From Apostichopus japonicus (lineage: Eukaryota > Echinodermata > Holothuroidea > Aspidochirotida > Stichopodidae): DNA of 64,000 nucleotides. Each line of letters opens with the position of its first letter. Position 1 is the first letter of the stretch. The position numbers and the translations under genes are program-made. Below the pieces are notes generated by a model that saw nothing but the letters and a program-made list of their open reading frames with translations, did no database searches and was not told the DNA's origin. The DNA lies in assembly GCF_037975245.1 (NCBI RefSeq), contig NC_092576.1:11043111-11107110 (forward strand). Reading direction: 5' to 3'. Positions 758-58,643 of this stretch are shown here, in pieces.

Positions 758-2229
758 ATGGTGGTGCTGCTAATTCAACATGTGTTCACGAAGAAAGAGA
801 ATGTACGTATTTCTGTTTGTCGTGCAAATCCAAAGCGTGTCCCAACTGTGTCCGTTCTCAACACAGTCAGCCTAATTGTGACTTTTTTGTACTAGCCGAT
901 ATTTCAGAAGAGAGATATAAGCGTCGACATAAACTCATTGAAGAAATATCGTTAGAGAAGCAACACATCGAAGGCCTGGAGAAACTACGTATGAAAAGGG
1001 AAAGTCTTATCAAAACATCTTTATCGGAAACGCGAGCTAAGATAGATCGGGACTTCGAGGAACTGAAGATAAACGTAAAAAGGGTGGAAGAAGGTTTAAT
1101 ACGAAAAGTGCAGGAAAAACAAGAGTTCCATGAAGGGCAACTGAAGGGAAAAAGGGCGGAAATTCAGAAGTTTAGTGCGGAAGTGGACCGTTTCTCGCAG
1201 AAGGAGAAAGGTTCATTTGGTGACAGTTTAAGACAATACCTACAGTTAAAGGAAGGATTGAAAGTTATATCAAATGTTCAGACCGAGGCTGTCAAAAAGA
1301 ATGAAATATTAAACAAAATGAATGTTAGTTTCCTGTACAAGAAGTTGCAGCATGACGGAACATTTGGTACTTTTACGGAACGTACATTAATTGGTAGTGT
1401 ACTCGTTAATTTCCAGACACTGTTGCACTTCTTTGATAGCAGAAGAACAAAAAACGGTATCCTTCTTGTTTCAGTTGACTGTAGTGTTCGTAAAAAGGAG
1501 GTTTGGACACACCTCGTTAAGATTGACAATCCAACTGATCCAGTAGTCATATCGAATTTAACGATGCTTAATGGTGAAAGACATCATTCATGTTTTGCTG
1601 TAGGTAAGATGGTATTCATCACAAAACATCAATATTCACCATTGGGGAATGCCTGTGTAGAATCAGTAGCATCATTGGTAATTGATACGGTGCGTGAAGG
1701 GTGCTGGATTACCAGTATTAGTACACACTATTCGACGGATGGTCCCAAAGATCGCTTTGTCATCTCTACCAGCTTTGACCAAGCAGTGCGAGAGTACAGT
1801 GTCGCTGGATCTGCACTTAGGGTAATAGAGACACAAGGTATCGTCTCCACACAAGTCACTAGAGTCGCATATTGTAACAACAAGTTTGCTATCATAAGTC
1901 AAGATTGTAATGATATAATTATCGTTGATTCAAACGGTACAGTCAAACAGTGTGGTGTATTCGTACGTCCATCATCTGTATCAGGGATGCTACCGATCGA
2001 TGTTTTATGGACGGGATCTAGTTGGTTAGTGTTGTACATCACCCATGGCGAAGACAAGGAGTGGAGGGTCATACACTATGCACCAGATGGAACATTTGAT
2101 AAGGAGTGTGATGTAGGAGCATATTCTTCTCCGAATGATGTCCCTATAAGTGTTACACGATGGGGTTACACTGGCTGTGTCACATTTGCCAATACTAGTT
2201 TCCGTACATTTGGTACGGGTTACAACTAA
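758..2229 (+). CDS. Gene A: B-box / coiled-coil / propeller exon (5' DED exon not in window)
   Basis: Long terminal exon of a TRIM-like gene. The exon is taken to start after the acceptor tttcttcttttatag (AG at 756-757). There the frame is split G|AT, the same phase 1 as the B-box exons of genes B to E. An in-frame ATG at 733 just upstream could only be used if the intron is retained. Numbered from that ATG, zinc ligands C17, H19, C28, C31, C36, C39, H44 and C49 form a B-box. A charged coiled coil covers about residues 57-195. The C-terminal domain runs from about 202 to 498 with the family motifs GTFGTF, DPVVISN, GCWITSIS, FDQAVREY, SGMLPIDVLWTG and GCVTFAN. There is no RING. Oddity: the first Cys sits one position closer to the His (C-x-H) than in the other copies (C-x2-H). 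The DED exon is presumed to lie left of the window. Function is inferred as a death-fold adaptor/sensor. Confidence 0.85.
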
Positions 2230-2281
2230 CATATTTCTTGGGTGATCTGCTCTTCATCTGTAATAGTTGTATGGAAATAGA

Positions 2282-2287
2282 AATAAA
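2282..2287 (+). terminator. Polyadenylation signal of gene A
   Basis: A canonical AATAAA lies 53 bases after the gene A stop codon, a usual position for a compact 3' UTR. The cleavage site itself cannot be seen. Confidence 0.6.
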
Positions 2288-12300: not shown

Positions 12301-13740
12301 AGGAAGTTACCTTTAATCATTTGATAATTTTTATTCATCAATTTTTTCATCATTTCTACAATTCCGCAATACAATTTGTAGACACTTCCCTTGGTACTAA
12401 TGACTGGACATATTTGGTTGGTCGTTCTAAACTTCTATAACACTTTCTGTAGTTATATCATTGTTATATTTGTTATTATTTTACTCTGTGGAACAGTATA
12501 CCTGTCGTGTTTGCGTACTTTATGTTGTAACCTCATCGCGTAAGTCTGAACACCATCAAAAATGGGAATGTTATGTTATGAAAAATGCTTAAAGGTAACA
12601 CTGTTAACACAGCCGACAGGTAGAATATCGCTTGGAGTCAAGTGTATGCTTCACCACACATATACCTATACAACAAAGCTTATTAAAAACCATACTCTAG
12701 TGCCTGAACGAAATAACAAATATAAAGGCGTGCAGCTTTCGTTACCACATCATTGCAACGATTGTATTCCACGACATACAAAGTGCGTGTGTATAGTAGA
12801 GTATTATACTGTTTGACTTCTTTCGCCCCCAAGTCTCCCATTTTAAACACGTTTTCAGTAGTCATGATGACAAGTTGAAGGGAACACGTCCGTACTTACT
12901 CACATGATTACATATACGATAAGAAAAGTGATCATTTTTAAATTGAGTTACAACCAGATTGGCTACTGTCTCCAATCTCCCTTTTTGATAGACTGATTAT
13001 AACGTGTGATGTAAACTAAGTGTTACATAAACTACCAATGTAATATCAGTTGAATATTTTTCTTTTACTTTTTCTTTTATCTAACATCATGAGGAACAAC
13101 GAAGCACTACTTTCATCTTTTGAAAAAGGCATTGATGTAGTTCATTCATCCACAATGTGTTACATTAGTTAAAAAATAACTGTGTGGTTATCAATTCTTG
13201 GAGAATGCGAAAACATGTTATCCTTAATAGTGAACGCTATTTCACAATGTATTTCCGATGTTGGACCTGTTTGTTATCATCTGGGTAAAAGAATACAAAA
13301 CGTTATCGTTTCCTTCAAATTTAAATCATGTTTTTTTCAATTTCAAAACCATGAAAGCATACTTTGTTATAGCTCAGTTCGCCCAAAGGCGACTATGAGA
13401 ATACATAAACCCTCAACAATATGCTTTATTGCCGAAGGGAACCTTAGCATTCAAGTAGGCGTTCGTGTGGTTTCAAATATGTGAGTGCTTGGATGTGCCG
13501 GACACCTTTACTTTGTAAACACGTTATCTGAAAACAGAACAATATTATATTTGTTGCTTTAAACACATTGTGAGTAGATGAACCATGTTGTTTAGGGGTG
13601 AGTTCAAACTTTGCATTTATCGTCAGGAATATTGCTTTAATGCTGTTATTAGGTACAGAAGGTGATGTGTATATCACATTTGCGAGATAATTATTCCTAC
13701 CAAATAATAAATGAATATGAATATCGTGTTTTGTTCACAG
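9312..13740. other. Intergenic region upstream of gene B
   Basis: No gene recognised. A leader exon of gene B probably lies somewhere here, because its DED exon is preceded by a splice acceptor. A possible weak donor, CGC|GTAAGT, is at 12540. Short open frames on both strands (for example 9489-9881 minus) lack family motifs. Confidence 0.4.
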
Positions 13741-13758
13741 CAATTGCAGGAATCCATT

Positions 13759-14038
13759 ATGGCGTCTCGTGTTTCCACTTCAGATTTTAGAACTTGCCTT
13801 CTTAAGATTTCTAAAATATTGACAGAGAAAAATGTTAAAGAAATAACTTTCCTCTGCAAAGATATAAGTCCAGCTAGGAAGCAGCTATTATCAACCGCAA
13901 GTGATCTTTTTGTTGCTTTGCAAGGTCTTGACTTGCTTCACGAGAGAAAAACCGATGTATTGATTGATTTGTTAGACAATCTACAGCTGGAAGAGGCCTC
14001 AAAGTTAATGAAGGAATACAAAATGCCACACCTCCAAG
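13759..14038 (+). CDS. Gene B exon: death effector domain
   Basis: Starts at the ATG of MASRVSTSDF, 18 bases after a good acceptor (ttttgttcacag, AG at 13739-13740), so a non-coding leader exon is likely upstream. It encodes about 93 residues of DED fold: FLCKDISP after helix 2, then DLFVALQGLDLL and VLIDLLDNLQLEEASKLMKEY. The exon ends CTCCAAG|GTAGGT with donor GT at 14039-14040, leaving one base of the next codon (phase 1). This matches the phase-1 acceptor of the B-box exon at 15644, so the codon is G|TG (Val). DEDs mediate homotypic contacts in apoptotic and inflammatory complexes (family knowledge). The partner here is unknown. Confidence 0.8.
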
Positions 14039-15643
14039 GTAGGTTCGTGGTAAAACTAATATAGATGCTACAAGCCACAGTATTACACTTTTTCTCTCTA
14101 TGTTATTTATTATACTCAAGTTATACTGTGAAGCAAAAATTCAATGGGTATATTGTTATCGCAATAATATCGGATGTAAAAGAATGTTAAGACACCTTTG
14201 CTCACCGTTTCGGTATTTCGAAGTATGAAATATGTCAACTTTAAGATGTTGCTACTGTCAGTACCTACATGCTAAAATATAGAAACATGTCCAAACAGGC
14301 TAGAGAAAATAGTCATCTTCAGGCCATTACCTGAAATAGTTTATGGTGAACTGTGTATTGTCAGTATGGACTTTAAACACCATGAGCTTGACTACCGTGT
14401 GTTGTAGTGTGTTTGTAGTTGAGTTTGATTATTCGAGTAAATACAGCAAAAGGAAGAAATGTTTTATCACCAAATTGCTTCATGTGTAAACCCAATCATC
14501 ATCAATAAAATTCTCCCAAAGATGGGTTATCCTTTATGCAAAGCATGTAGTGTATATATTGCAACCGCATAGGAAACATTGTTAGAACTCTAAACCTTAG
14601 CCGTACTAATGTTATATCCCAACCGCTAGAACATGCCACCAGGAGAAACGCGATTAACATACACAAGTATTTCCTTAACCTTGGAAAAGTAAAAAATCTA
14701 TAACAATCAATGAAACTTTAGAATCTCATTTTCTTACTCAAAAAAGACGATACAATTGCCACGCAATACATTGCCAATCATTTGAATAACTTTCACAAGC
14801 CCTCATTTGATAAACTGGCTTCGGATATGCGCTTTATGATTAAATTAAAATTAATGTCAGACAGATTGAGCACATATTGAAAAGAGATAAGATTTCGAAG
14901 AGCTTCATTTGTCTTAAGTTGAGAAAGTTGTAACCGTCTAACATAAGACTATTTAGAGAATACTTACCTTACTAGCATTAATTTCATCCAAGAATTTCGG
15001 CTTGGGAGTAGACATTTTTACAATAATAATTCCTCCTAAATCTCAGTTATAGTTTGCTATAAAACTAAATTCAGAGATTCGAGTAGGTTGCAGAAAAGGT
15101 GTCAATTAAGCCATATTGTATTGTTACTTACCCAGAAATCTAAATGCAAAGAAAACCAAACGTGTACATTGTAAACAGAATATTCTCTAATTCGAGTTTC
15201 TAAGGGTTACAGTTATGCTAAATATACCCCCCATTATCGCCCAAAATTCCAACACCTTCAGTTTTAATTACAATATCAATAAAATTCAATTGCTATGTTT
15301 TCATCTTGGACCTTTAACACACAGTGAGGAACCATTCAGGACTACAAGTCGATTGTTGTCGCATCCGAGAATTGATTCATTGGTTTGTTGCAACATGACC
15401 CTTTGATCGCATATTAATACGTCTTTGCTGTCTTTCTGGGTACTATTTAGAGTAATGTAGAGTCCACTAACGAGGGTTCGTTATAAAATATGACATTTCA
15501 GAAGAGGTCTTATGTATACATGTAATAAAATAAATCATCGATTTTAGCAAGTTTCGCAGTACCAAATTATCAAACGTATGATTTTAAATGTTTTTTGCTG
15601 TTTATTATTTCCAGTTTAAAATTATGTTTTATACCGTTAACAG
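14039..15643 (+). other. Gene B intron
   Basis: A 1,605-bp intron bounded by GTAGGT and accgttaacAG. It links the DED and B-box exons in frame (phase 1). A second possible acceptor, tatttccag, ends at 15614. No other gene is seen inside. Confidence 0.6.
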
Positions 15644-16293
15644 TGCCTGAGAAGTTTGCTGTAAAATGCCAAAATCACAACGACCAGAATGTGAAGCATT
15701 TCTGTACATCTTGTAACTCTAAGATGTGTGATATTTGTACTCACAATGCGGCTGCCGGTTGTAACGTCATTAGCTTTGATCACATATCAGAGGAGCTTTC
15801 AAAGTGTCGTGAGAAACTGACCAAAGACACAGACGCAGCAATAGAAAGTATCAGAAGAAATGAAAAATTATTAGAAGAAAGAGATGCCTTTTTCAGTAAG
15901 TGCCGAGAAGATATTCGATCCAAGATTAGTAAAGACGCATCTGCATTGATAGGAGAAATAGATATGAGGAAACGAAAGTTGTTGCAGAAGCTCAATGATA
16001 AAGAGAAATATGCCACAACACAAATGATAGAGGCTAAAAAGTCTATTACAATTCTTTGTGATAAAATAAGACGTTTAGCGATGTTCGACATTTCGCCCGA
16101 AAATAATGCGGTTGACAAGCTTTCAGAGATAAATATTTTAATGAAAGAAACAAGAGCTATCGAGGCAAAGATTATGTTTCAGAAAGAAACATTAAGGAAG
16201 AACAGTGATGATATTTCGTACGAAAAAATGGATAACACCGGAACATTCAGTAGCATTGAAGAAGTTATACCAGAAAGTGCTAAACGAAAATAA
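15644..16293 (+). CDS. Gene B exon: B-box and coiled coil, propeller truncated
   Basis: Begins G|TG CCT GAG AAG after an acceptor at 15642-15643. The B-box starts CQNHNDQNVKHFCTSC and continues CDICTHNAAAGC. Compared with genes C to E it lacks three residues in the last loop, and the His four residues after the final C-x2-C is not in its usual place, so zinc binding may be impaired. A long coiled coil follows (about 150 residues, rich in K, E and R). The frame enters the first strand of the C-terminal domain (NTGTFSSIEE), then diverges and stops after AKRK. The rest of the domain is absent from the following sequence, and a (TA)n array begins 80 bp later. Either a decayed gene or a short DED/B-box/coiled-coil form that could act as a regulator. 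Confidence 0.7.
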
Positions 16294-21699: not shown

Positions 21700-23159
21700 T
21701 CAAATGTGCAAATATTTACGAACACTGCTATTAGCAAAAGTGACGTATCCGTCGTAACCACTTCTACAAATGCTGACAGGAATATCAGACTCGTTAGCCG
21801 CTACGCCCTCTGCACAAACTACACCCAACATATCAGTCACGAATTTTGCATAAGAAGCAATCTTCCACGTTATGTCTGCGCCATCTCCAAAATACAGCAC
21901 CGCCCACTTGTTCCCCGTCCAGATGATGTTCATTGGTAGCAAACCTGGTACAGATGACCGTAGAGATAGTACACCAGACTGCTTTGGTTTGTCCTCTGTG
22001 TCAATCAGTATTACGTCACTGATGCCTTTACAGATTATAGCAATAACATTTTTACAGTAAGCCACTTTGATTATTGGATTAGATATAATATGTTCTGTAT
22101 CTATTACCCTTAGGGCAGATCCGGATATATTGTACTCACGAATTTTGTGATCAAATGTTGTCGTGATGATAAACTCTTTGTTTGAATCATTGTTTGAGTG
22201 GTGAGCAGTAATGCTGGTAATCCATGACCCTTCTTTGACCTCGTTGATCACGACGGATGACACTGATTCTATAGAATCATATTGTTTGTTTTGTTCTACA
22301 GTAAAAACCTTGCCACCTATTGCAAATAATAGGTGATTTTTCTTAGAATAATACAGTGCTATATTCGACATAACTACAGGATCATTGTGATTATCAATCT
22401 TCTCCAGATATTCCCAGTTACCTTCAGTGTGATTTTTCTGATCACATGAAACGAGAAGAACACAGCCGCTACTGTGCCTCTCGTCATACAAGTGCATAAG
22501 GCTATGCTGAAGTATAGCTGCACTCCCAATGAGTGTACTTGATGTAAGAGTAGAGAATCTTCCATTATTAGAATTTGTTGTATAAAAGAAATCAACGGGC
22601 ATTTTGAAAATTTTCTTATGATAACGTTGACGATACCGAATATTTTGAACAGCTTCCAACCCTTTCTCTATGTTGTAAAGTTCGTTTAAGGTATCGTCCC
22701 TGGTAGCTTTAGGTATTAAATCCTTCAAGTCTTTACTTAGGTCGTGGATATCTTCCTTTGCCTTAATCATTTGTGTATGGTAGTACTTTTCCGTCACATC
22801 TAATTGCTGCAATAATTGTTCTTTTCGACAATCTATTAGTTTATTCAATGAAATCGAATCGTTGTGAATCTTTGATTCCACTCCTTTATGATACTCGTTG
22901 AATAAACATTCCTTTTCTTGCAATAGTTTCTCAACAGCTGTTATGCTTTTTCTGGCTGATGTTATTTCTTCGTCTAACTTTGCTTTAGCTTTTTTAATTT
23001 TATCTGGAATGCTCGGAGGTGGAATAACGTTGCAAACTGATGGTTTGTTGTGATCAGACACGATGCATTCTGGACATCCTGTAATGTTGCATGACTCACA
23101 AAGGTACTTAACGATTTGATCTTCATGAAAACGACAGCTTTCAGGAGACTCCACGTGCC
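21700..23159 (-). CDS. Gene C exon: B-box / coiled-coil / propeller
   Basis: The exon begins at 23159 after acceptor cttacttttatAG. The frame is phase 1 (G|GG CAC GTG GAG), matching the gene C DED donor. There is no in-frame ATG near the exon start, so splicing from the DED exon is required. Numbering from the GTG at 23154, zinc ligands are C7, H10, C19, C22, C27, C30, H35 and C41, an intact B-box. The coiled coil is about residues 50-170. The C-terminal domain is about 195-484 with LIGS, LMHLYDERHSSG, NDPVVMSNIALYY, GSWITSITAHH, FDHKIREYNISGSALR, LLPMNIIWTG and GYVTFANSS. No RING, no B30.2 and no NHL repeat was recognised. This is the best-preserved member and a good family reference. Confidence 0.88.
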
Positions 23160-23374
23160 CTATAAAAGTAAGAAAAAAGGTACATCTTCCTCATCTAAGT
23201 CGTAATTACAAAAAAAAAGAATAAGCAAAAAGGTCAATGATATAAATAGACATACCAAACACACTCACGCATACACACACACACATGTTTGTGTTTCATT
23301 AAGACCGAGGACCCCATTGTATTTTCCATTGTTCAAATCCACGTACCCTAACCTTAACAATACCCCATACAATA

Positions 23375-23470: not shown

Positions 23471-24470
23471 TATATATATACATATATATATATATTTACA
23501 TTACTAAACCCACGGGCAAGTGCTGTAACGAAACGACTCATGAACCCAAATTGACATTATTTGTTAATTTCCATACTTCAGCTTGTCTCTTGATTCGATG
23601 TTTACTAAATGTGACATTACTCGTAAGATTAGATCATACTCGTAAGATGAGATCATCGAATGATTCACCCCAATATCGATACCACACGTTTAATCTCCCT
23701 CGAATATATTTCTAAAAAATGCTTCGCTGATGCAAGTAGGTTGCAAATGTACGTTACGAGATTAATTGTGTTCAATGTTTAAGTTTACATGATACCTTGA
23801 ATGTATTATGGCATACGGGAAAGAATATGACTGTGACACTACTATGATTGTCAGTATAGGCAAACGACAAATGAGTAAGTAACATTTCACGGCAGAAGGG
23901 GTTACCTAATGCCTTATTTCTTCACGTTACGGCCAAGGGTGGATACAGGGGCAAATGGGGGAAGTTGCATCCTCCCCCATCACAAGTTTGGCGTCCACCC
24001 ATTTTAAAACACATGCACCCCTTGACCTGTTTCTTAATCTACCCACCCATTTTGATGAACTCCTCTGCAGTGTTAGGCTGGCCCTTGCGTTACGGCACCT
24101 ATATGATAAGGCATTGGGTACAAATACTGCAGTATGGATACTACAAAATTTGACTTTAAATACCTCTTTTACCTCCATTTCGTAAACGAAGCAGTCTATA
24201 ACATCGTGTTTATATAAGTGTTTTATACATCATTTGACGCAAATACTCAGGCAATACTATCATATTGTTTTCGTTACATAATTTCGTTTTTTCGACATCT
24301 AAAAGCTTATTGTGAATAGAAAACATTCAAGTTTTATTTATTTAATATACATATTAAATGAGTTCGACACATCTAGTTCACTGAAATTATTTTGTATGAG
24401 CAGACAATTGGGAGCTGATGTGGGACGCATTCAAAGAGTTTAACAATTGGCAAAACACAAAAAAGCATAC
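23160..24470 (-). other. Gene C intron
   Basis: A 1,311-bp intron between the DED donor (CTAACAG|GTATGC) and the B-box exon acceptor, phase 1 at both ends. It holds a (TA)n array. At about 23934 it also holds a CAAGGGTGGATACAGGGGC stretch with G- and C-runs that looks like a decayed hAT end. Confidence 0.6.
23376..23496. repeat. (TA)n microsatellite with interruptions
   Basis: TA dinucleotide interrupted by a GA step near 23416 and by ACAT steps near 23467-23482. It lies inside the gene C intron. Ile/Tyr open frames here are artefacts. Confidence 0.9.
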
Positions 24471-24741
24471 CTGTTAGGTGTTCACACTGATAACTTTTCA
24501 GGCATTTGAAAGCCTCAGAAAGTTGGAGCTTGTCTAACCAACTAATAAGCAATTCAACGTGATATTCACTGAGCAGTTTTCGATCTTGTAAAGCATCGAA
24601 TACATTTCTAGCATTCGTTTTCGTGTATAGAGTTAAATCTGGAGTCAGTGCAAGTAACTTCCGGGCATCGTCGTCTGTCAAATGCTTTGAAACATTTAGT
24701 AATGTGAGCCTGAATCTTGACTTAAGGCTGATTGACGTCAT
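24471..24741 (-). CDS. Gene C exon: death effector domain
   Basis: Chosen start is the ATG at 24741 (MTSISLKSRF), matching the MTS/MAS starts of the other DED exons. Seventeen bases upstream is an acceptor (tttatgacag, exon from 24758), so the leader is in a separate exon. About 90 residues: LLNVSKHLTDDDARKLLALTP, then NVFDALQDRKLLSEYHVELL and ISWLDKLQLSEAFKCLKSY. The FLCKDISP-like loop of genes B and D is replaced by LLALTPDL, so this is the most divergent DED here. The exon ends ACAG|GTATGC, phase 1. Confidence 0.72.
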
Positions 24742-30250: not shown

Positions 30251-32519
30251 GGTCCTAAAATCCATAAAAGTTAAACATCTTACCAAGTGCGGCATACTAG
30301 AAACTATCGTTCTTGCAAACCACAAACACCTACTATTACCTAGAACGCAACTCGGAGAGACCTTAGACACTAAAGGGGAAGTACTCAAATACGCCCGTCT
30401 GTGCAACAAAGAGTCTGAGAAGAAAGTTTCCTGCAATTAAAAACTACTTCTGAGACATTACTATGTCGAAATAATAACCCATGTCTTTCCAAACATAAAC
30501 CATGCCGACACAGATACTATCTCCACCGTGAGAATCTCAGAGTTCCAAAGTCACCTTTTACTGTTCAAATTAATATAAACCCCGGATACGAAAACAATGC
30601 ATATAAAACAACATTTAAGAAAGCACTGGTACCTAATTGCCTAAAAACAGTTATTATCTAACTTGTAATTATCGTACTCCTACCCGATTGTTGCCTACAG
30701 GTCAACAAATCTTACATATCTTCTTGTGAGATTATAGATGAGATCGACGATACACGTAGACCCAAGATAACTGTAATTAAGTGTAGTATACTAAAAGTAA
30801 GTAAACCTAAGTATATTCGCCATACATGGTGAAAGGGGAACAAACCAAACAGTTAAAACTCGGAGTACTCAAAAAGACTTATTCCATTCGAAAAAAAATA
30901 CCTAAGATGACTATAACAAGACCCTATGTTATTTACGGTCAGCATATTGTGATTTACAGTTGTGTAATATTAAAAGTCGAGCAAAGACCACAAATATGGA
31001 TTATTTTGTACCATATTTGGTAGAAAGTTATCAACGAGTTTAGCACGTTGTAAAATACACCTATTCATATGTCCTAAATTTGTTGTTGGCATGCACCTAA
31101 ACACAGAAGATCGAAATATTGTCAAACACACTTTTATGATTTAAACATATGCTGTTTCAATTTTGCATAAAACCATCGAAGCAGTTGTTAAACAGTATTA
31201 TATTACCGACTACCAGTGTAATCATATACCAAGCTTATTAACAATAAAGAGGCTCGAAGCCATTACAATAATCTCAATGATAAACTAACGAACGTTAAAC
31301 AAATGCATCGGAAGAAGTATCGTCACTACATGTGCGAAGGCGTTCCTGTGATATTGGGCCTCACCGTAATAATAACTCTCTCCAACCCCACTCTCCTAAA
31401 CCACCAGACTTTTTTCTTTTTGAAGTGCTCTGAGAAGCTTTTGAATCTAACTGCATTCTCAGCGTGCTTTTAAGAACATACAATTTGACCCTTGAGACTA
31501 CCGAGCCTTATCAGGGTAATATTTTTATGGTGACCGTCCTATAACAAGTGGAGTACACCGACTTCAACCATACTGCAAAATCTAATATGGACATTTAGCA
31601 GTTTCCAGGAAGATTTGGTGAGCATTTCGAATGCACGTCATCCGAGCCCGGAAGCAGGTCCTTACGTCCAATAGCGAGTCTTAAGTGACTGAGTCCGAGT
31701 TGAGTCACCGAGTCAAAAAAAAACCCCGGAAAAACAAACACTGTTAAGTGTATTCATTGTTTATTTAATTTATTTGATAGATATACCGAACAGCAAAAAC
31801 ATGATCACAAAGAGGAGCCCCACCCCCCCCCCAACACACACAAAAGACACACACCGCATTCACACACTTACGGGGTACATCCCTTACGAGACATTTCTAT
31901 GAGTTCAGGATATGCCCTAGCAGTACCAACACACCAACAAGATTTTGTGAAAACCTCAAAGGTGCAGATTTTCATCACGTTTTATAATTAAATGTATTTT
32001 TATCCATGTTTGAAATCAGATAGGGTCCTTAACTTGAGAACTTGAGAGGAATACAATAAGAAGGTGCTCTTTTGTTGCAGAAACATTCCAGCATTAAAAC
32101 TTGTTGTCAACATGAACATATAATCTGTTTTGTGCCTCCTTCTCTCTGAAAAGAAATTAGGCCGCATCAAAATACGGTTACAAGTGATTTGCCCGTATAC
32201 AGAATATCTCCGTACCTTGGAAAGTAGGTGTTTAACTTGTATCTATGAAAGTCTTAGTAGCCTAACCAAGCTAAGGTCTGTTTGTCAAGAGACAGGTGAC
32301 GACTAACTTTTTTCATGGAAGACCAAACTCACCATAATATTCTTAGTCAACAACCATGTGTTCACATTTCCATGCAACTGGAATAGGCTTAGACATGCGT
32401 GGTAGTTCTATTACAGAATACTGACAGATTTTACATACCAAGTTCAATTTGTAATCTCATATATAACTTTATGCGGATGAAAAAGCATTTGTATTTTCTA
32501 CAACGGAATATGATCATTA
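30251..32519. other. Intergenic, no gene recognised
   Basis: AT-rich with short open frames lacking motifs. It may include further decayed Penelope-like sequence right after the hAT insertion. At 31677-31717 a short GAGTC-rich run (gagtc repeated about five times) matches the style of the GAGTCC-rich run at 63.4-63.75 kb. A C-run lies near 31820. Confidence 0.4.
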
Positions 32520-32642: not shown

Positions 32643-33955
32643 TTAAATTTCAAACATTAGGAAATTCAAGTTAGCGGAAACGCCATACCCATCGTTACCC
32701 CATCGTGTGATACTAATAAGAACGTCCATTTGATATGAAGATGTTCCCTCATTGCAGACATTGAGAAACTTTCCGGTCCGCTCATATTGCACAACCTTCC
32801 ACTTGTTGTCATTTCCATAACTGACATACAACACCAACCATGTACTACCCGTCCAGATGATATTGATCGGTAGCACACCAGTTATAGATGACGGGAGGCT
32901 TAAGGTACCAAACTGCTTGACTGTTGCTGTAGCGTCCACCAGGATGACATCTTTACGACCGCGAAAAAGCAACGCAAAAATGTTCCGACAATAAGCAACT
33001 TTATATATAAACTTGAACGGAACTTGTTCTTGTATATCTATTGTTCGGAGTGCAGATCCGGAGATTTTATATTCTCGTATCTTGTGATCAAAGCTGGTAG
33101 AGATAGCAAACTCACTGTTGAAATTATTATCTGGAAAATGTGCCGTCATACTGGTAATCCAAGAGCCTCGAGGTACCTCTTGAATCACTAATTTTGAAAC
33201 AGATAGTCGAAAACCACTCAAAGAAACTGGCATTTGAGGAGATAAATCAAAGACTTCATTGCCTACAGCAAATAGTACATGGTCTACACTGCCATGATAC
33301 ATTGTTATATTTGACATAACTACGGGATCAATGTGATTATCAATAGTCACCTCTTCCCTCAAAATATCTTTACTATTATCATCGCTAGTAAAACATCGCA
33401 AGACAACTTTCCCATTGTTTTTTCTTTCATCATATATATGCACCAAGATTTTACCTGGCACGACAACGATTCCTATCAGGATACTTTCCTCAACGCTACC
33501 GAAAGCTCCGTCATTTGGTACTCTCTTATACAAGGGATTTTGAGTATTCTTTTCCGGTGTTTCCTTCGGTAGATCACGATCACGTCTTGTCATTTCTACT
33601 CTCTCTATTAGCTTTTGCTTTCTCTCTTGTACAATTTTTTCGAGTGATGAAGAGTCCAGAAGGATCCTAGATCGTGCTTGTTCTCGACATTTTGCTACAA
33701 ACTGTTCCTTAAATTTCCATAGTTCCTTGACGTATTCAGCTTTTACTTTAACATTTTCTTTTTCCTTTGAAAGCTTCTGGCGCCGCTTACTAATTTCTTC
33801 TGATATTGTGCTCAAGTTAATGACGTCGCAGTTTAAAAGCTGAATGTGCGCAGAAACTGCACAGTCTGGACAGACTTTAGTGTTACATGATAAACAAAAA
33901 CACTTGAAAACTTGGTCTTCGTGGATAAAACACCTAGTTTGAGCGTTTTCGTTTT
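32643..33955 (-). CDS. Gene D exon: B-box / short coiled coil / propeller
   Basis: Exon start follows acceptor ttatctcatcAG (AG at 33957-33956), phase 1 (G|AA AAC GAA). An in-frame ATG at 33995 lies within the intron and would only serve an unspliced message. Numbering from it, zinc ligands are C22, H25, C34, C37, C42, C45, H50 and C56, an intact B-box. The coiled coil is short, about residues 62-140: roughly 100 residues separate the B-box from the C-terminal domain, against about 140-150 in genes A, C and E. This looks like an in-frame internal deletion. The C-terminal domain (about 155-450) has ESILIG, LVHIYDERKNNG, DPVVMSNITMY, GSWITSMTAHF, FDHKIREYKISGSALR and GVLPINIIWTG. It ends DGYGVSANL instead of GYVTFAN. 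Confidence 0.86.
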
Positions 33956-34334
33956 CTGATGAGATAAAATGAAATTTGACAGGTAAAACAGCCATTACAC
34001 CGATTGATCTGTACTTTACAACTTATATTGAGTGTTCACGCGACCACCAGACAACGTTTACATATTGCACATTAAGCAATGTGTATGCGCTGCTTGTGTT
34101 CTGCATGCCTTCTCTAAGACACAAACCCATAATGTAATGTCATTTTACCAGCGATGACCAGGTGTCTTATTGCAATTAAAGAGAAACTGAGATGATATAA
34201 CCGGAGCAAGTCTTGTGAGCCTGTGGTTATATCACAGGGACAAGCCTACTGAGAGGGGGAATGACTGTAGGGACTGGAGTCACTAAGGGTGTCTAAGAAA
34301 ATGTAATAACAATTCGATTACAATAACCTCTCAC
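33956..34334 (-). other. Gene D intron (379 bp)
   Basis: Shortest DED-to-B-box intron of the cluster, from GTGAGA to TCATCAG, phase 1. Confidence 0.65.
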
Positions 34335-34614
34335 CTTTAACATGTGTTTTTCTGTATTCCTTCAAGAACTCAGACGCTTGAGAAAGACCAAGCTGGTCTA
34401 ACCAAAAAATAACTGCATTGATCTTATGATCCTTCAGTAAGTTGTGATATTCCAAAGCATCAAACAATTCTCCAGTGTTAGTAATCGTGTCCCTTTCTTC
34501 TGGAGATATATCTTCACAGACAAATGTCAAATCCTGGACATTTTCCTGAGTCAATACTTCAGCTACCTTATCTAGAGCAAGCTTCAATTGTGAGGTATTA
34601 CTTTGTGACGTCAT
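34335..34614 (-). CDS. Gene D exon: death effector domain
   Basis: Starts at the ATG of MTSQSNTSQL, one base after a possible acceptor (gtttctccAG, exon from 34615). About 93 residues: ALDKVAEVLTQENVQDLTFV, CEDISPEERDTI, then ELFDALEYHNLLKDHKIN and VIFWLDQLGLSQASEFLKEY. The loop CEDISP matches the CKDISP of gene B and is typical of DEDs. It ends TTAAAG|GTGAGA, phase 1, and joins the B-box exon 379 bp downstream. This is the clearest complete two-exon gene in the window. Confidence 0.83.
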
Positions 34615-34615
34615 A

Positions 34616-36429
34616 CTGGAGAAACTAGAAGTTAGTTCTGTTCTGTTCTATTCTGTTTTAAAAGTAAAGTGCAAAACGTTGTTGTATGTCGAAAGATATA
34701 TCAACACATGAGTCACATGAATGGAATCGATATTAAATTTGTTAAAGCTAAAATACTTATCAAGAGTTACTTCAATGCTTATCATTACCATCTAAACGCC
34801 TTTTCTTAGCCTTTCATTGTACATAATCAGTACACATGTACTATTGTTACTGTTTGCAAGGAGATTCTACCATTATTATAGTGAAAGGAAGATTATGAAA
34901 ACACTTCGAACACAAGGTTTGCCACAAGCTTTATATCGACAGAAGGCCTACAATAAAATACAACGTACTTGACATAGACTGCAATACCGAACCTATATCT
35001 TAACATTTCAGTTATAACATAGCACTTCAATGGAAACCTCACTTGCTCACTTAATACATCTACTGCAACGAATACAATTATGACAATTATATTTGTTGTT
35101 GCTTTTCACCTACGTTTGAAGAAAGCATGTTGGCAATGGCAACAACGAAACATAACTCACTGTGAAAAGTTCACATCCACAATGAGTAGTTTAGAAGAAT
35201 CAACAAGTCCAAGTTTACTGTAACCAGCTTACTAGTGCTATACTGGATTTAACCTATAAAAGCCTGTGTAATCGCTATGTAGTCAATAGCTTCTGTGAAC
35301 ACTTTCAATTTACATTTAGCAGTGTAATGTTATTCATTCATACTGATTTGACTCCATTAATAAATTGATCATACACATTTCTGTATTCTATAGTATTTTC
35401 ATGTGTGGATATCCCTAACAGAAAAAGGGACTAACGATAAACAATAATAACTGCAGGGTTCTTCAAGCTAGTTACCATATAGTCTACTACTACCTTTTTC
35501 TTACCTTTTCAAATCAACCCAGGTTCCGAGATTCCAAAGGCAATCCACATAATAATTACCATAGCTGAAACTAGAGGGACACATTCACGTACCGTACTGA
35601 ACGTTTCACTGATTGCATCTATATGATATAACAAGTAGCTTAGTCGGATTGGTTCAAAGGTTATTATCTCATTCCTACTGTTACGTACTGGGATGCCAAA
35701 TTTTACTGCATGGGTATTTTAAGTCAAAATGAAGTCAAAATGATAATGCTGCCGACCTCATACCCCTTTTGCTGGACCAGATATGGAATTGTGTCAAGTA
35801 ATCTGTGTAAGTAAGAGAGTGAACAAAATGGCGTTTTAATAAAACGTCATACCGCTTGACTTTAAACTTTGTAGAATTTGTGAGCGCCTCTGTGACGTTT
35901 GGTCTCATAAAGTAAACATTCAGACGTTAGGGGTACAACCCAAAGCGTACCAAAGAGAAGAAATAGACATTACTCCAAATCCAATAAAGACATTACACTT
36001 CCAGAGTAAATGTCACGTGATCAGATAAGATGATGATGATGATGTTGATCACTAAGACCGTCCGGTTTACAATTGTTTCATGTTAAAAGTATGTTTGGTC
36101 CTGAATACTCATATTTTGTCTTGCCTATATGCTGTGTACAGTTGAATGACTCACTATTAAAATAAACCCTGATAGAAACCGAAATTATGTTACATGGTAG
36201 TAGATCTATGCTGAATCGGGTGTGGATCCGTAGTGCTTACATGCCAGGCGGCCATTTGCTTTAGTATTGTAGTTTATGAGCTTGGGATTCTTATTGACTA
36301 TCACTTTTCATCAAATCAAAAGGTAATAACACAGTTCCACTAGTTTCAGGATGATACAATATATTCAAAGCTCTCTGCAACCCTCATAATCGCACTCTTT
36401 ATTAACTGAATTGATATGTGCAAGTCTCA
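34616..36429. other. Upstream region of gene D
   Basis: No gene recognised. The promoter and any leader exon of gene D should lie here. A short GAT repeat occurs near 36030. Confidence 0.4.
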
Positions 36430-36880
36430 GTACTACGATATTAATGCCAGTCTCAGCACAAAAATACAATCTCTATAAATTAGTGCGGCAAGAGTTATTT
36501 ACCGCCATGGAAAGGGGGATGATGTCTGTACCATTTGTAAAGAGTTTTGTGAACGTTGATCACAATGCTGCTCCTGATTACCCTAAAAACCTTATTATTT
36601 TTGCTCGCCCGGCTACCTTGTTAATTTTTGTACCACGGGTTCACCATGTTTGGTTCTGGGGCCTTCCCCTTTTATCCCCTAAACTTTGGAACACTGTTCC
36701 TATTAACATCCTCCTGATAAAACACATTGATGAATTCAAAGGTAATCTTAAGCACATGTTAGGTTATTTACGTAAGTTTCATCTTGCTCGTATCATAACT
36801 TGTTTTGCACCAGCCCACTTATGCACATGTATGTCATCTCGGCTAAGATAGAATGGGCTATACAAATACCATAATCTATA
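36430..36880 (+). mobile_element. LINE reverse transcriptase C-terminal fragment and 3' end
   Basis: An open frame includes FWGLPLLSPKLWNTVPINIL followed by KHIDEFKGNLKHML. This is the conserved tail of Jockey/CR1-type retrotransposon ORF2 (WN.LP then a FK..LK motif). About 20 bp after the stop, GGGCTATACAAATACC resembles the common LINE 3' end GCGCTATACAAAT. It is a short 5'-truncated insertion. Confidence 0.55.
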
Positions 36881-41049: not shown

Positions 41050-42539
41050 CTACGAATACCCTAATAATGAATTTAATACTGAAAGGTAATCTGTTCCACC
41101 AGCAACTGAGCGTGACGGATACTGAAATTTTCGAGTCGTACAATTTGCGAAACTTACATACCCGTGGGTACTACATCGAGTGACATTCACAGCAACATCT
41201 TTTGGATTATCAGATGTTCCCTCGTCACCCAGCTTATCCACAATCGTTCCTAGGTCGAGGTAATAGCTCACAACCTTCCACTTGTTCTCTTCCCCTTTGC
41301 TAATGTACAACACTAAAAAATGAACACCCGTCCACACTATATTAATTGGTACCATATGTAAAACGGTGTTCTTAGGCTTTAAAGAGCCCAGTGCATGAAC
41401 TGCCCCTTCAGTAGATATCATTATGACGTCGTTCACGCCTTGCACAATAATAGCAAAGAACGTCATAAAGTACGCAACTTTCGATATTTTATTGCAAGGT
41501 AAAAACTGTGTGGCATCTATCGTTCTTGTTCTAGATCCAGAGACATTGTATTCACGAAGTATGCAGTCACTGTCAACAGAGATGACAAACTCTTTGTATG
41601 AACCCGTGCCTGGATAATGTGCGGTAAGACTGGTTATCCAAGAGCCTTCAGGTAGATCATCAATCATCAAGGATGAGACTGATCCTACAGAATCATACAA
41701 CGAACCTGTCCATTGAGGATGTACAATGAACACCGTATTACCTACAGCAAACAATTGGTGGGATCGTCCCTCATAATACATGCCTATGTTGGACATAACT
41801 ACTGGATTGCATCGATTGGCAATCTTCACATGATGCTTAAACCGCTCGTTGCTTGTATCATTCAGATCAACAAAAACAAGCAGAACATTTCCGTTTAAAT
41901 GCCTTTCGTCATGCATGTGTAGTAAGAGGGTTGCTGCAACAGTTGTAGTTCCTACCAGGGTGCTTTCTGCTATGGTACCAAATAGTCCATCATTTGGTAT
42001 TTTCCTGTACAAGAGATCATCTGAAATGATATCCAACAATACACTGTGACGATCTAATTGTTTCTTAAAATATATGGTCTGTTTCATTGCTGCGTTTATG
42101 GTTTGAAGCTCTTGCAGTGTGCTTTTCGCAGTTAAGTCATTTAATTTACCCAAATGCTCCAATTCCTCCTCGAGAACTTGAACATCTCGTTTTGTCTTCA
42201 TCATCCGTTTTTTGTCCGATAATTCTTTTCGATCTACCTCTGCTATAAGGTCTCTCTTGCATTTACTTATGTTTTCCATCAAGTCCAAGCAATCCTTTCG
42301 AATTAGTGATGGTATGTCTTCTCCATATTCGTCAGTGATATTTTTCCTTTTATTCACTAAATTTTCAACGGATTTGGGATTTTCCTTAATTGACTCAATT
42401 TCTGTTGGGTTACCTGCAATCAATTTGTCGTGCTTGTTATGCTCAATAGCATAACATTCGGGACAGACTTTGGTGTTACATTTTACGCAGAAATGTGTCA
42501 TAGTTTGATCCTCGTGAATGTGACAAGATGACCTGTACT
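41050..42539 (-). CDS. Gene E exon: B-box / coiled-coil / propeller
   Basis: The exon starts at 42539 after acceptor tttctttgcAG, phase 1 (G|AG TAC AGG TCA TCT TGT). This adds about 12 residues before the first internal ATG (42501), including the first B-box ligands C-x2-H (CHIHEDQ). The B-box continues CVKCNTKVCPECYAIEHNKH with a His rather than Cys as last ligand. Coiled coil to about residue 160 (numbered from 42501). The C-terminal domain from about 163 has STLVGT, LLHMHDERHLNG, CNPVVMSNIGMYY, GSWITSLTAHY, REYNVSGSRTRTID, PINIVWTG and GYVSFAN. The protein then runs about 20 residues past the usual end (to LGYS). The nearest compatible DED exon is 44377-44644; a second DED exon sits at 47509-47776. 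Confidence 0.87.
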
Positions 42540-44376
42540 CTGCAAAGAAACCAAAAACAAGATTAATAGAATTGATTTAAGTGCACAACTGGATGCAAAC
42601 AATTATGCCACATTTTTTTTTTTTTTAAGAAGAAACAATGTAATGTATGTCAATCTATGAAGTGTGTTTACCTTAAACGTATTTTATCACGTTTGAACAA
42701 GCTTTTGAGGTAACCTATGTTGGTAAATTAACCTCTTTTTTGATAATTGGATAGACAGTATTATTTATACTGAGTGGTCTATGTTCAGGTTGAAACTTGA
42801 CTGCTAAGTGTTCCGATTACATTACATAGACTACATAAATAACAGTAAACAATACGAATGGACAATTTTGACATAGACATTGAAGAAGCATTGGAATTAA
42901 TTTCGATGCTTTAAATTCCCATTGTATGTAGTTTATTAGATTGGCTGGTTCAAATTAATGTCAAATCATACACAAGTTAGAAATAATATACTCTGCGTGC
43001 TAAATATAACTTAATTTATACTATTCTCTCTTTTGTGTTTCCTTCCTTCTTTTTCCTTCATCGTTTTTTGTTTGTTTTGGCCTTGTTCCGGTGTTTCTTA
43101 TTTTTAGCGGGCCCTTTTTCCTTGTATCTTGTTTTGTTATTTGTTCATCAAGATACTACAGAACAACACAGACGTATATTTCAGCAAATCGATATTGTCA
43201 TGTTAAGTAGTTCTTTTATTGAAGTTTTGACAGGGTTTCATTTTATCATGTTGCCATATGTTATTAGGTAACGTGGCAACGGAAACAGTCTGCTCAGCGT
43301 GTTCCAGCTTTTGAATTTCATCGCAGTATGAAAATGAATATTTATTTGGAATTTGATATCGCTGATCTCTCACTTAACCATATAAAACTGAAATGATGGG
43401 GTCAAATTCTCGAAGGAATAAAATGAAACTTAAACTATTAAACTGTTATCAAGTCAGCAGAAATACGAAAATAAGATGAATGATTTTAGTTATGCTTTGC
43501 ATTTGCATTCATACAGTATTAATTGTTAGAGGACATTGTCTTCCAAGGGTTATGTGCTGTTAATATGAGTTCATGGAACACGCTTTGATTGAGGTATAAG
43601 AAGTTATAAAAAATGGACTGACATAAACAGTTATGCATCTACTGAGGACCCGTATGTCCATTATCATCCATAATCCATTATGTTAATACTTGCTTAAAAC
43701 CTTGCGAATAATTCTAAAACGTATTGTACTCGACCTAATCGTTCAATGTTGAACGTAATACCACAATCTTCAATACGATTCAGGGGTCTAAAATGTAATA
43801 TAAACTATGAGATAACTCAACTTTCGATGAGCCTTCACTGATATTCGCTCACGTCATAAATGTTGATGTCATGCCAAAAAGACGGAACAGTTAAATGCAA
43901 ACATTGGCTATTGATAATGCCCTGCCTTGAAACATAAACATGGATGTCGGAGTGAAAAACTAACATTGCATTGACATGCCCTGTTGGGTCCATTCCGTTT
44001 ACAACATTGTTTACAATACTTGTTCACCATACGCAATACACGTTCAGTAGATTTGTAAAATATTGCATTGATAATAACATCATTTCTATATGGTGCTTTA
44101 CTGGTAGATATATTGACATATATTGAGTTTGTGGCATATTAACTTTAAAGCGAAAGACTTTCAATATCAATTTTTTCGAATTCTTCGTTTTCAAAAACCA
44201 ATATTTGAAACTCAACCTTTTCTGATATCGCTGCTAAATTGTCGTTGAATGTTTGTTTTTACGAGAGACATTTAGTTGACCAGCTATGATCAAATCCTGA
44301 TGTATGATACACACGTAGATGTGCCCTTTGCAAATCTGTAAGGGATCAAAACCTATCAAAATCTATAAGGACCTAC
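42540..44376 (-). other. Gene E intron
   Basis: 1,837 bp between the DED donor (GTAACAG|GTAGGT) and the B-box exon acceptor, phase 1 at both ends. Its upstream half is part of the segmental duplication. Confidence 0.6.
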
Positions 44377-44700
44377 CTGTTACATGTAACGTTTTGTAAT
44401 CCTTCAGAAACTTTGAAGCTTTCGAGAGCTCAAGTTCGTCCAACCAATCAATAAGTACGTTGACTTTTCGTTCACTGAGAAGGTCTTGATCTTGCATTAC
44501 TTCAAATAATTCGTTGGCGTTGGTAACACCCTTCACTAAACTTGGACCATCACATAGAAAGCCTAGGTCCTTCACATTTTTCTCTGTCAAAACGTTAGAT
44601 ACCTTTTGAAGAGTATCTGTATACTGTGACCTGGATGACGTCATGGTGGAATCTATGGTTTCTGTGGAGAATAGTTTGCAACTCGTTACTGAAATATACA
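43141..44700. repeat. Segmental duplication, copy 1
   Basis: Nearly the same sequence recurs at 46241-47831 in the same orientation, offset about 3.1 kb, with scattered substitutions and small indels. It includes the gene E DED exon. The shared left part holds an identical-looking open frame end (TTEQHRRIFQQID...) on the plus strand. Confidence 0.9.
44377..44644 (-). CDS. Gene E exon: death effector domain
   Basis: Start at ATG of MTSSRSQYTD, 17 bases after acceptor attctccacAG (exon from 44661). Eighty-nine residues plus one base: TLQKVSNVLTEKNVKDLGFL, CDGPSLVKGV, NELFEVMQDQDLLSERKVN and VLIDWLDELELSKASKFLKDY. Ends GTAACAG|GTAGGT, phase 1, compatible with the B-box exon at 42539. The 17-base leader between acceptor and ATG is itself open in phase 1 (ETIDST), so an upstream phase-1 exon could be spliced onto it in frame. 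Confidence 0.8.
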
Positions 44701-45398
44701 TTTAAAGATGCTTTCCAACATTGACCATGCCTATTAACATTCCAGTAAACACAATCCATTTGAACACAAATGATATGACTTGAGTTGATAATTTTGTTAA
44801 CTGTAAGTAACACAAGTTACAGTAGAAACTACTACAAAAGAGCATGTACCAATTCCTCTCCCCCACCCCCCCCCCCCCTATTCGTCAATGACTCATATAA
44901 GTATCGGGTATCTTAATAACTGAACTGAAATTTAAAATTGAACACTTTTATTTTTAAAATGTTTCAGAACAGAATAAGGAATATTGTGAACTTTGAATTC
45001 TTATCTGCTTTGTACTAGAATATATTTTATCCGCATTGACTAACTGTACCATCAAGTAGATCTTAATTGAACAAAACGATATTTTCTATATCCTCTTTAT
45101 TATTTTCTTTATATAACTTACTTCATGTGATATTGCAGAGACTGGTGTGACATGTTTTCAACGCAATAATACATTTCCTGTTCCAAAGCTATAGAAAAAG
45201 TCACTGATTGGAAAGATTGCTACTGCGAAATGGTACACAAAGTTCAAATTTCTTGAATGGCGGATGGAATCTAAACTTTTGTGTGAAAATTAAATGCACA
45301 CAAGCTGTAGACCCCTTCCTAAATAATTACTTAATCTTGTGTAGTGCATAAAGTCTTAAACACACTCTCAATAATGACTAGTTGACGCAACATCTCTT
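44701..45398. other. Between duplication copies, no gene recognised
   Basis: Unique AT-rich sequence with a poly-C run at about 44861-44878. Confidence 0.4.
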
Positions 45399-47831
45399 TT
45401 ATCTTTATCGTCATCACTTTTATGATTTCTGGTTACAAGGGATACTTTTCCTCGTCGCAATGGATCATACCAATGACGGGTGCAACGAGCATGGCACTCT
45501 GTTTCCAGCTAGTTGGGACAATTTCCTAATGCTAATCTCTCTAAACTGTCCTCTCATACCATGCTTCAAAGCCCTCGTATTGACAAACAGTTCCTAACCT
45601 TTTTCTGATTGAAACATGATATTCGCACTGCTCATGCTGACACTACGAGTGCTCTGAAGCGGGACAAGGCAGAACTCAAGAATCGTACACTCTCGTCACT
45701 CTCGATGGACAAACAGGGATAAGTAATATACAATGATTCATTCTGTTTTAAGCAAATGAACACAAGAATTGGATATTTGCAGTTCACGTCTTGTACGCAA
45801 CTTATTTTTAATATAAGCCTTGTTAAACTTGCATCAGTTCTTCATAAACTAATCACGATACTTTTCTTGTCTATCCAAACAATATTTGTAAAGAGAAAAA
45901 TTAACAATTTTGTAAGGGAGCATCGTAATGGCCGCTGAAATGATCCATTATAAAGTTTGGAGGGCTCACAATTTCAAGTAAAGACTTCATTGAATCTGGA
46001 AGTTGTGTTGGCTTACGGTTTCATAATGTCATTACTTCAATGAAAATTAAATACGTATACCATATGAAATAGTGAAGTACAATAAGTAGTTGTGTCTTTT
46101 CGAAGATGTTTTCTGTATAAAACGTTTTGACCGGCATATTTGTTTCCACCTGGCTAGGGTGGCCGAAATGCTGGTGTGTTTCTGTTTTTCCTGTTTGTAT
46201 TTAAACTTCAACTCTTGTTATCTTGTTACCGCATTGTTACTTTTTCATCTAGATACTACAGAACAACACAGACGTATATTTCAGCAAATCGATACTGTCA
46301 TGTTAAGTAGTTCTTTTATTGAAGTTTTGACAGGGTTTCATTTTATCATGTTGCCATATGTTATGAGGTAACGTGGCAACGGAAACAGTCTGCTCAGCGT
46401 GTTCCAGCTTTTGAATTTCATCTCAATATAAAAGTGAATATTTATTTGGAATTTGATTTCGCTGATCTCTCACTTAACCATATAAAACTGAAATGATGGG
46501 GTCAAATTCTCGAAGGAATAAAATGAATCTTGAACTAGTTAACTGTTATCAAGTCAGCAGAAATAAGAAAATCAGATAAATGATTTCAGTTATGCTTTGC
46601 ATTTGCATTCATACAGTACTACTTGTTAGAGGACTTTGTCTTCCAAGGGTAATGTGCTGTTAATATGAGTTCATGGAACACGCTTTGATTGAGGTATAAG
46701 AAGTTATAAAAAATGGACTGACATAAACAGTTAGGCATCTACTGAGGACCGTATGTCCATTATCATCCATAATCCATTCTGTAAATACTTGTTTAAAACT
46801 TTGCGAATATTACTAAAACGTACTGTGTTAGACCTAACCGGTCAATGTTGTACTTAATACAACAAATTTTAATACAATTCGGGGGTCTCAAATGTAATAT
46901 AAACTATGCTATATCTCAACTTACCTTTATGAGCCTTTACTGCAATTCGCTCACTTCATCAATGTTCATGATATGCCAAATGACTGAACAGTCAAATGCA
47001 AACATTGGCTATTGAGATGATCAGCCTTAAAATATGAACATGGATGTACTAGTGGAAACATACATTGCATTTACATTTCCCTGTTGCACCATACTTGTTC
47101 ACCATACGCAATACACGTTCAGTAGATTTTCTAAAATATTGCATTGATTATATAACATCATTTCTGTATGGTGCTTTGCTGGTAGATATATTGACATATA
47201 TTGAGTTTGTGGCATATTCAATTTAACGCGGAAGACTTTTATAAGCCATCGTAGTACAACATATCAATTTTACTACAATGGTAACAAGATTTTTCGAATT
47301 TTCTTCTTTTGTTCTTCGTTTTCAAAAACCAATATTTGAAACTCAACCTTTTCTGATTTCGCTGCTAAATTGTCGTTGAATGTTTGTTTTTTACGAGAGA
47401 CATTTAGTTGACCAGCTATTATGAAATCCTGATGTATGATGCACACGTAGATGTGCCCTTTGCAAATCTGTAAGGGATCAAAACCTATCAAAATCTATAA
47501 GGACCTACCTGTTACGTGTAACTTATTGTAATCCTTCAGAAACTTTGAAGCTTTCGAGATCCCAAGTTCGTCCAACCAATCAATAAGTACGTTGACATTT
47601 CGTTCACTGAGTAGTTCTTGATCTTGCATTACTTCAAATAATTCGTTGGCGTTGGTAACACCCTTCACTAAACTTGGACCATCACATAGAAAGCCTAGGT
47701 CCTTCACATTGTTCTCTGTCAAAACGTTAGATACCTTTTGAAGAGTATCTGTATACTGTGACCTAGATGACGCCATGGTGAAATCTATGGTTTCTGTGGA
47801 GAATAGTTTGCAACTCGTTACTAATATAAAC
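45399..47831. repeat. Segmental duplication, copy 2 (longest)
   Basis: The right two-thirds (46241-47831) match copy 1 at 43141-44700. The left third (45399-46225) matches copy 3 at 49649-50370. Together they define a unit of at least 2.4 kb carrying one DED exon. Confidence 0.88.
47509..47776 (-). CDS. Extra death effector domain exon (duplicate of gene E DED)
   Basis: Near-identical duplicate of the gene E DED: MASSRSQYTD, NVLTENNVKDLGFLCDG, NELFEVMQDQELLSERNVN, DWLDELGISKASKFLKDYNK. Intact frame, same acceptor (attctccacAG) and same donor (GTAACAG|GTAGGT, phase 1). No B-box exon lies between it and gene E's DED exon 2.9 kb downstream. It could be an alternative first DED for gene E, could splice in phase onto the gene E DED exon to give a tandem-DED protein, or could be an unused duplicate. 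The frame has stayed open despite several residue changes. Confidence 0.72.
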
Positions 47832-58642: not shown

Positions 58643-58643
58643 T

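Follow-up and report, generated by a model that had tools for sequence, protein, structure and literature searches.

A stretch of 64,000 nt from Apostichopus japonicus (NC_092576.1, contig C16, positions 11043111-11107110; hereafter the window) carries five related predicted genes in which an exon coding for a death effector domain (DED) precedes, on the same strand, an exon coding for a B-box and a coiled coil, to which a shared C-terminal domain of about 295 residues is added in four of the five. This window lies at the edge of a tandem cluster which spans C16:10.24-11.09 Mb (about 0.85 Mb) and includes at least 27 B-box/C-terminal loci and two fragments (L011:5604-6035 and L024), as found by searches of the 671.6-Mb, 35-contig assembly with the window exons; all cluster and family counts are lower bounds. 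Judging from their sequences, the interpretation we lean towards is that the encoded proteins are cytosolic sensors that multimerise and recruit DED-bearing caspases, the family being most likely a functional analogue, and not a relative, of pyrin. New here are the contrast between the DED, which is constrained, and the C-terminal domain, whose ratio of nonsynonymous to synonymous substitution rates (dN/dS) is near 1, and the apparent exchange of the latter domain between sub-clusters.

Stop-to-stop scanning of the window gave four long open frames at 691-2229 (+), 21700-23190 (-), 32643-34022 (-) and 41050-42576 (-) and a shorter one at 15529-16293 (+), all five of them B-box-bearing and mutually related, with the other four long-exon sequences being 33-41% identical to the first. 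The DEDs are located in short frames at 13711-14061 (+), 24376-24789 (-), 34321-34647 (-), 44366-44701 (-) and 47498-47860 (-). A first-pass annotation of this DNA had listed five exons with B-box, coiled coil and the shared C-terminal domain; the former two were indeed present in all five, whereas the last was found only in four, as the gene 2 exon stops at its expected start and no further piece of it was detected downstream. Four genes had been said to be preceded by a DED exon, and the strand and the matching phase 1 were as described, but the window contains five DED exons, and gene 1 has its own just outside, the donor lying about 475 bases before position 1. Scripted joins of the DED and B-box exons were in frame for all five genes (Table 1), the DED of gene 1 being taken from outside the window. 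The predicted introns of genes 1-5 are 1231, 1605, 1311, 379 and 1837 bases long, and the phase is 1 throughout, so that the DED donor leaves one codon base and the B-box acceptor supplies two. Gene 5 has two DED copies, the outermost being a recent duplicate of the other with 257 of 268 coding bases identical (11 differ), and the distal copy, too, has a donor that leads in frame into the B-box exon. The proximal exon is preceded by CACAG, splicing at which is phase 1, and with these phase-compatible sites a double-DED transcript, i.e. a caspase-8-like isoform, could possibly form, at least on paper.

Table 1 Predicted exons of genes 1-5 and the duplicated block of gene 5 (window positions unless a contig is named)
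Feature	Position	Strand	Details
Gene 1, DED exon, left of the window (L036)	open frame from C16:11042345, donor after 11042636	+	PF01335 E 1.7e-7
Gene 1, B-box + coiled coil + C-terminal domain exon	758..2229	+	acceptor TTTTATAG^AT, phase 1; 584 aa joined
Gene 2, DED exon, likely ATG to donor	13759..14038	+	donor CCAAG^GTAGGT, phase 1; PF01335 E 1.4e-12
Gene 2, B-box + coiled-coil exon, ends before C-terminal domain	15644..16293	+	309 aa joined
Gene 3, DED exon	24471..24741	-	donor ACAG^GTATGC, phase 1; PF01335 E 2.9e-6
Gene 3, B-box + coiled coil + C-terminal domain exon	21700..23159	-	576 aa joined
Gene 4, DED exon	34335..34614	-	donor AAAG^GTGAGA, phase 1, 379 bases from B-box exon; PF01335 E 8.5e-7
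Gene 4, B-box + short coiled coil + C-terminal domain exon	32643..33955	-	530 aa joined
Gene 5, proximal DED exon	44377..44644	-	PF01335 E 3.3e-9
Gene 5, distal duplicated DED exon	47509..47776	-	phase-1 donor intact; PF01335 E 1e-9
Gene 5, B-box + coiled coil + C-terminal domain exon	41050..42539	-	585 aa joined with either DED
Duplicated block with proximal DED	43121..44701	-	copy at 46214-47833, 87.75% identical, about 1.6 kb

All five DED exons of the window matched PF01335 (E 1.4e-12 to 2.9e-6), three of them above the gathering score of Pfam, and none matched the PYRIN domain in Pfam at E<=10. Among solved structures, the DED profile aligned best with caspase-8 pro-domains (E 5.4e-8), which were followed by cFLIP (0.009), FADD and PEA-15 (0.03). 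The genome search for DEDs returned 52 matches at E<=0.01, 32 of which were counted over the cut-off, one of these only together with its neighbours. The best DED of this search (E 4.3e-17) is that of L031 (C10:3542561), located 5' of STAND/NACHT-type NTPase-like frames (GMPGAGKT, by eye) in what resembles a DED-NLR gene.

In some B-box exons an internal ATG lies close to the acceptor, as would be expected if the DED and B-box exons were separate genes that are never spliced together. This is very improbable, however, since the place and phase of the splice sites are conserved across the family. An acceptor AG at phase 1 was present in 24 of 24 B-box exons examined, lying exactly 23 bases before the first B-box Cys in 22 of them and exactly 14 bases before it in two, and a phase-1 donor was found at the homologous place in 24 of 25 DED exons (20 by pattern; L001-L004 were also included), with the only exception of the copy on contig C1 (L025), whose DED is interrupted by a stop and whose donor is unclear. 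The order of DED and then B-box on the same strand, with the DED exon no more than 12 kb upstream, is observed at 22 of the 27 cluster loci. In L023 the DED exon is 34 kb away, and no DED was found for L006, L013 and both L020 loci; in L006 and the first of the L020 loci, the adjoining 5 kb on the upstream side is N. Gene 4 has an intron of only 379 bases, and the same exon order occurs at the dispersed loci L026 and L037.

These two loci lie outside the cluster at C16:8.05 Mb (L026, DED 8.5e-6) and C10:19.63 Mb (L037, DED 1.7e-5, followed by a B-box with an E-value of only 0.024), and the order is also found in L025, the copy on C1 with the internal stop. As the same exon order recurs at dispersed loci, the DED-B-box architecture is probably older than the cluster. 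Two other loci are less complete: L030 (C16:3.5 Mb) has a weak upstream DED match (0.0088) and no B-box by Pfam, and L040 on C11 has a clear B-box (8.2e-7) with no DED recognised. Within the cluster, the tandem expansion that had been proposed earlier is borne out by the 27 loci. Blocks of N of 2.5-5 kb adjoin or neighbour family exons there (L005, L006, L007/L008, L020, L021, L023).

The B-box profile PF00643 was matched by all five window B-box exons with E-values of 7.8e-5 to 0.0046, each below the gathering score, and at E<=0.01 by 20 of 20 family members scanned (best 6.9e-7), so that the profile check suggested in the first-pass annotation favours both DED and B-box. In the B-box, six Cys/His columns do not vary (C, C, C, C, C, H) and a further His hardly varies. 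The B-box of gene 1 is one residue shorter between the first Cys and His and was the sole window copy (one of five) missed by a strict B-box pattern. The long-exon profile aligns with solved chains of TRIM3 (3.7e-9), TRIM28 (8.8e-5) and TRIM5 (0.0045) from the B-box through the coiled coil. The heptad power of the coiled coil was matched by 0-29 of 500 shuffles in five of the six members tested and by 116 of 500 in L009, and, judged by helix and strand propensities, the coiled coil tends to helix and the C-terminal domain rather more to strand. The description as RING-less is supported: a six-frame search of the window and 25 cluster loci (L001-L024 and L036), runs of N excepted, showed no RING consensus.

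The matches of B-box and coiled coil to TRIM3, TRIM2 and TRIM28 would also fit a RING-less TRIM-like scaffold unrelated to cell death, in which the DED recruits some other DED protein (e.g. a ubiquitin ligase or a MAPK regulator) and the role is in trafficking, transcription or ubiquitination; many TRIM relatives are no immune sensors. We nevertheless consider it quite unlikely, for a tandem expansion, a constrained DED and a C-terminal dN/dS near 1 are unusual in housekeeping scaffolds.

The C-terminal domain matched no Pfam family above the cut-off; none of the members scanned matched B30.2/SPRY or PRY, NHL or filamin in Pfam, searches of PDB with profiles built from 4 and from 22 sequences gave no significant hit (best E 0.42 and 0.55), and nothing came near the cut-off in NCBIfam for nine proteins. 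Sub-threshold matches lean towards propellers, namely WD40 in 7 of 22 related members (best E 0.023) and DUF5128 (0.025) and the IFT80 propeller (0.027) in one member each. In a comparison of segments for internal repeats, one of 16 beat its 8 shuffled controls, which is about chance. The domain is probably beta-rich and perhaps a beta-propeller, the fold favoured in the first-pass annotation. It also occurs in frames of 320-369 aa in which no B-box was seen by eye (L027-L029), and at C11:4.23-4.24, 7.36-7.37 and 10.93-10.94 Mb and C16:28.63 Mb a B-box-to-C-terminal match is accompanied by a separate C-terminal-only frame 6-13 kb away, the three C11 sets resembling copies of each other. Open frames of 1768-2076 aa beside some C-terminal domains were considered as giant exons and rejected, as they are runs of N.

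Selection was compared between domains in two groups of recent cluster copies, group A (8 copies, C16:10.60-10.78 Mb, 7 of the 8 rows being used for the DED with L010 left out) and group B (4 copies, C16:10.24-10.27 Mb); the other cluster copies were omitted as broken, masked, devoid of a clear DED or simply unchosen (L019 and L023 have open B-box exons). In group A, dN/dS is 0.31 (0.15-0.65) for the DED, 0.51 (0.36-0.75) for the B-box with the coiled coil and 1.08 (0.83-1.44) for the C-terminal domain, and the codon bootstrap places the difference between the C-terminal and DED ratios at 0.35-1.16. Between the groups, dS is 0.71 for the DED, 1.46 for the B-box, 2.1 for the coiled coil and 0.17 for the C-terminal domain, the last value being similar to C-terminal dS within groups (0.11 in A, 0.18 in B). 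Identity between A and B is 33% in the coiled coil, 52% in the B-box and 75% in the C-terminal domain, and when bases are compared in windows of 30 codons, identity is 0.48-0.69 up to the coiled-coil/C-terminal border and 0.79-0.91 beyond it. Protein-level selection would not reduce synonymous divergence so far, which argues for exchange between lineages, and because C-terminal dS is much lower than that of the coiled coil and the break at the domain border is sharp, the simplest reading is that the C-terminal domain was probably exchanged as a cassette between the sub-clusters at least once. A and B each form a clade with 100% bootstrap in the tree of the N-terminal part. Divergence among the four window genes is too great for this test (mean dS 1.3-1.95 by domain).

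The genome also contains candidate partners, in line with the earlier suggestion that such proteins could signal through DED-bearing molecules; the loci in question are matched positions, not gene models. A same-strand order of DED, DED and caspase was found at C17:33.75-33.76 Mb and C23:17.47-17.49 Mb, the second DEDs being weak (E 0.001 and 0.006), and an order of DED, Death and caspase at C16:1.87 Mb and again at 1.89 Mb, where the DED has an internal stop. A DED followed by a Death domain at C3:15.60 Mb is a FADD-like candidate, although its DED match is weak (E 0.0044). Dozens of PF00531 Death matches lie at C12 19-34 Mb (150 of the 204 candidates were scored genome-wide) and probably represent another expanded death-fold family.

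In the sensor mechanism that we propose, the coiled coil would dimerise the protein and the C-terminal domain would bind a pathogen or damage ligand, upon which clustering via the coiled coil and the B-box would draw the DEDs together. The clustered DEDs could then recruit DED-bearing caspases, either directly or via a FADD-like adaptor, and the caspases might trigger cell death or inflammation. For these proteins we infer expression and location in the cell, and likewise that they dimerise, bind a ligand, assemble through their DEDs and recruit caspases.

Several observations weigh against this interpretation. The first concerns the DED itself. Many DEDs carry an E/D-RxDL charge triad, and in the window DEDs, when aligned by eye, RxDL is absent (LQLEEA, LQLSEA, LGLSQA, LELSKA and LGISKA vs GRTDLVEA in L031, which reads R-T-D-L), so that assembly through the usual DED interface is uncertain. 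The proteins might instead be decoys or brakes, in which a DED lacking RxDL binds DED-caspases or FADD without activation, as cFLIP and PEA-15 do, while the C-terminal domain targets the inhibition. The matches of the DED profile to cFLIP and PEA-15 fit such a role, but both rank behind the caspase-8 pro-domains, and a fast-evolving, exchanged C-terminal domain suits a sensor better than a brake; we therefore hold the decoy role to be unlikely. The extra DED copy of gene 5 shows no clear constraint (dN 0.039 and dS 0.054 between the two copies).

The other points concern the C-terminal domain and the state of the copies. The fold suggested for the domain is a prediction from sub-threshold matches. 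Its dN/dS in group A is not significantly above 1, and that ratio alone leaves room for relaxed constraint, with copies decaying after duplication and a selection pattern uninformative on sensing. Four of the 27 loci are broken or shortened (frames broken in L005, L013 and L015, gene 2 short), and five more are partial or border runs of N (L006, L008, two in L020, L021). Against relaxed constraint, 18 of the 27 cluster loci stay fully open to the end of the C-terminal domain, the same genes retain the constrained DED, and some 20-codon stretches of the domain are constrained (SVSSLVIDEVPEGSWITSIT, with a ratio of nonsynonymous to synonymous proportions, pN/pS, of 0.26) while others exceed 2 on few changes; relaxation is thus in our view rather unlikely as the explanation. 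In group B the contrast is weaker, with dN/dS of 0.22 for the DED, 0.66 for the B-box and coiled coil and 0.87 for the C-terminal domain, and a value of 1.17 for the 34-column stretch of the B-box taken by itself. For the C-terminal domain the tree has a star-like shape, and the approximately unbiased (AU) test rejects neither A (p 0.31) nor B (p 0.175) as a clade, so it is the dS contrast and the break point, and not topology, that carry the claim of exchange.

Outside the receptor genes, a tRNA-Cys with anticodon aca was predicted by ARAGORN at window positions 57972-58046 (-) and was the only match in the Rfam scan (tRNA, 35.3 bits). The region 57916-58008 has a copy with 95.7% identity at 58641-58733, beside TA repeats, and is probably a tRNA-derived short interspersed nuclear element. 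Broken frames at 54629-56055 (-), 19656-20113 (+) and 36390-36848 (+) resemble, by eye, the reverse transcriptase of retrotransposons without long terminal repeats. Three close duplicated pairs of 130-209 bases and 85.7-86.6% identity, plus weaker ones, are located at 59130-63100, and no match to the receptor family was found in the 48-64 kb part of the window. Elsewhere in the assembly, partial COX1 matches at C29:15228-15854 and 30842-31219 are either nuclear mitochondrial insertions or unplaced mitochondrial pieces, and contig C35 carries COX1 followed by nad4L- and cox2-like frames (named by eye). Translated with genetic code table 9, this COX1 has Asn for AAA at sites that are also Asn in its best PDB match (7o37_a), while table 5 would put Lys at these sites; table 9 is used by echinoderms and flatworms, and the gene order, too, agrees with an echinoderm.

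The sequences fail strict TRIM membership, as no RING was found, and pyrin membership, as there is neither PYD nor B30.2. With the NHL class of TRIM/RBCC proteins (TRIM2, TRIM3) the family shares the B-box and the coiled coil, TRIM3 being its best solved-structure match, and a beta-rich C-terminal domain is plausible for it, but here a DED takes the place of the RING and Pfam gives no NHL or filamin match. A large TRIM-annotated set of 140 genes is given for the purple sea urchin in the cited part of PMC13043383. DED-TRADD-N proteins of oysters, lancelets and other marine invertebrates are, in the part of PMC8195603 drawn on here, lineage-specific expansions in which the DED is coupled to variable domains including beta-propellers, with a B-box in Crassostrea virginica. 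The present family is alike in pairing a DED with a variable domain in a marine lineage and unlike in having no TRADD-N match after the DED in the scanned exons, with little space for another exon in the 379-base intron of gene 4, and in placing the B-box and coiled coil directly after the DED, in TRIM order, an architecture that this part of the source does not describe. The DED-NLR proteins described from sea urchin, lancelet and sea cucumber, as presented in the relevant parts of PMC2575513 and PMC8913654, likewise have an N-terminal DED signalling module in an expanded receptor family, but their sensor half is NACHT-LRR, in contrast to the B-box, coiled coil and unnamed C-terminal domain found here. 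Among the matches listed for the open-access literature there was no description of a DED-B-box-coiled-coil family.

Pyrin (TRIM20/MEFV) of vertebrates has a death-fold domain in the place of RING, then a B-box, a coiled coil and a C-terminal domain, and this layout is common to the present family. The differences are that the death-fold domain is here a DED and not a PYD, that there is no B30.2/SPRY match and that about 27 tandem loci stand against a single gene, with no sign of common descent. The proposal that the two were assembled independently fits these different death-fold and C-terminal domains; its basis is that difference, not a tree. More tentatively, and with less confidence than in the sensor role itself, one may think of a separate echinoderm class of diversifying cytosolic DED-B-box-coiled coil-sensor receptors converging on pyrin, in which the death-fold domain replaces RING, a coiled-coil/B-box lattice multimerises, and a C-terminal cassette passes between paralogues by gene conversion bordering at the domain junction, the signalling half staying constant while recognition diversifies. 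The cluster is also a natural experiment in receptor diversification, with the sensor half probably exchanged and fast-changing and the signalling half constant, so that in this animal, which lacks adaptive immunity, ligand-contact positions and the pressure exerted by pathogens could be deduced from sequence. If the proteins act in the proposed way, the union of a TRIM-type multimerising scaffold with a cell-death domain came about at least twice, with PYD in pyrin and with DED here, which would show B-box/coiled-coil lattices to be a general route to triggering death-fold assemblies.

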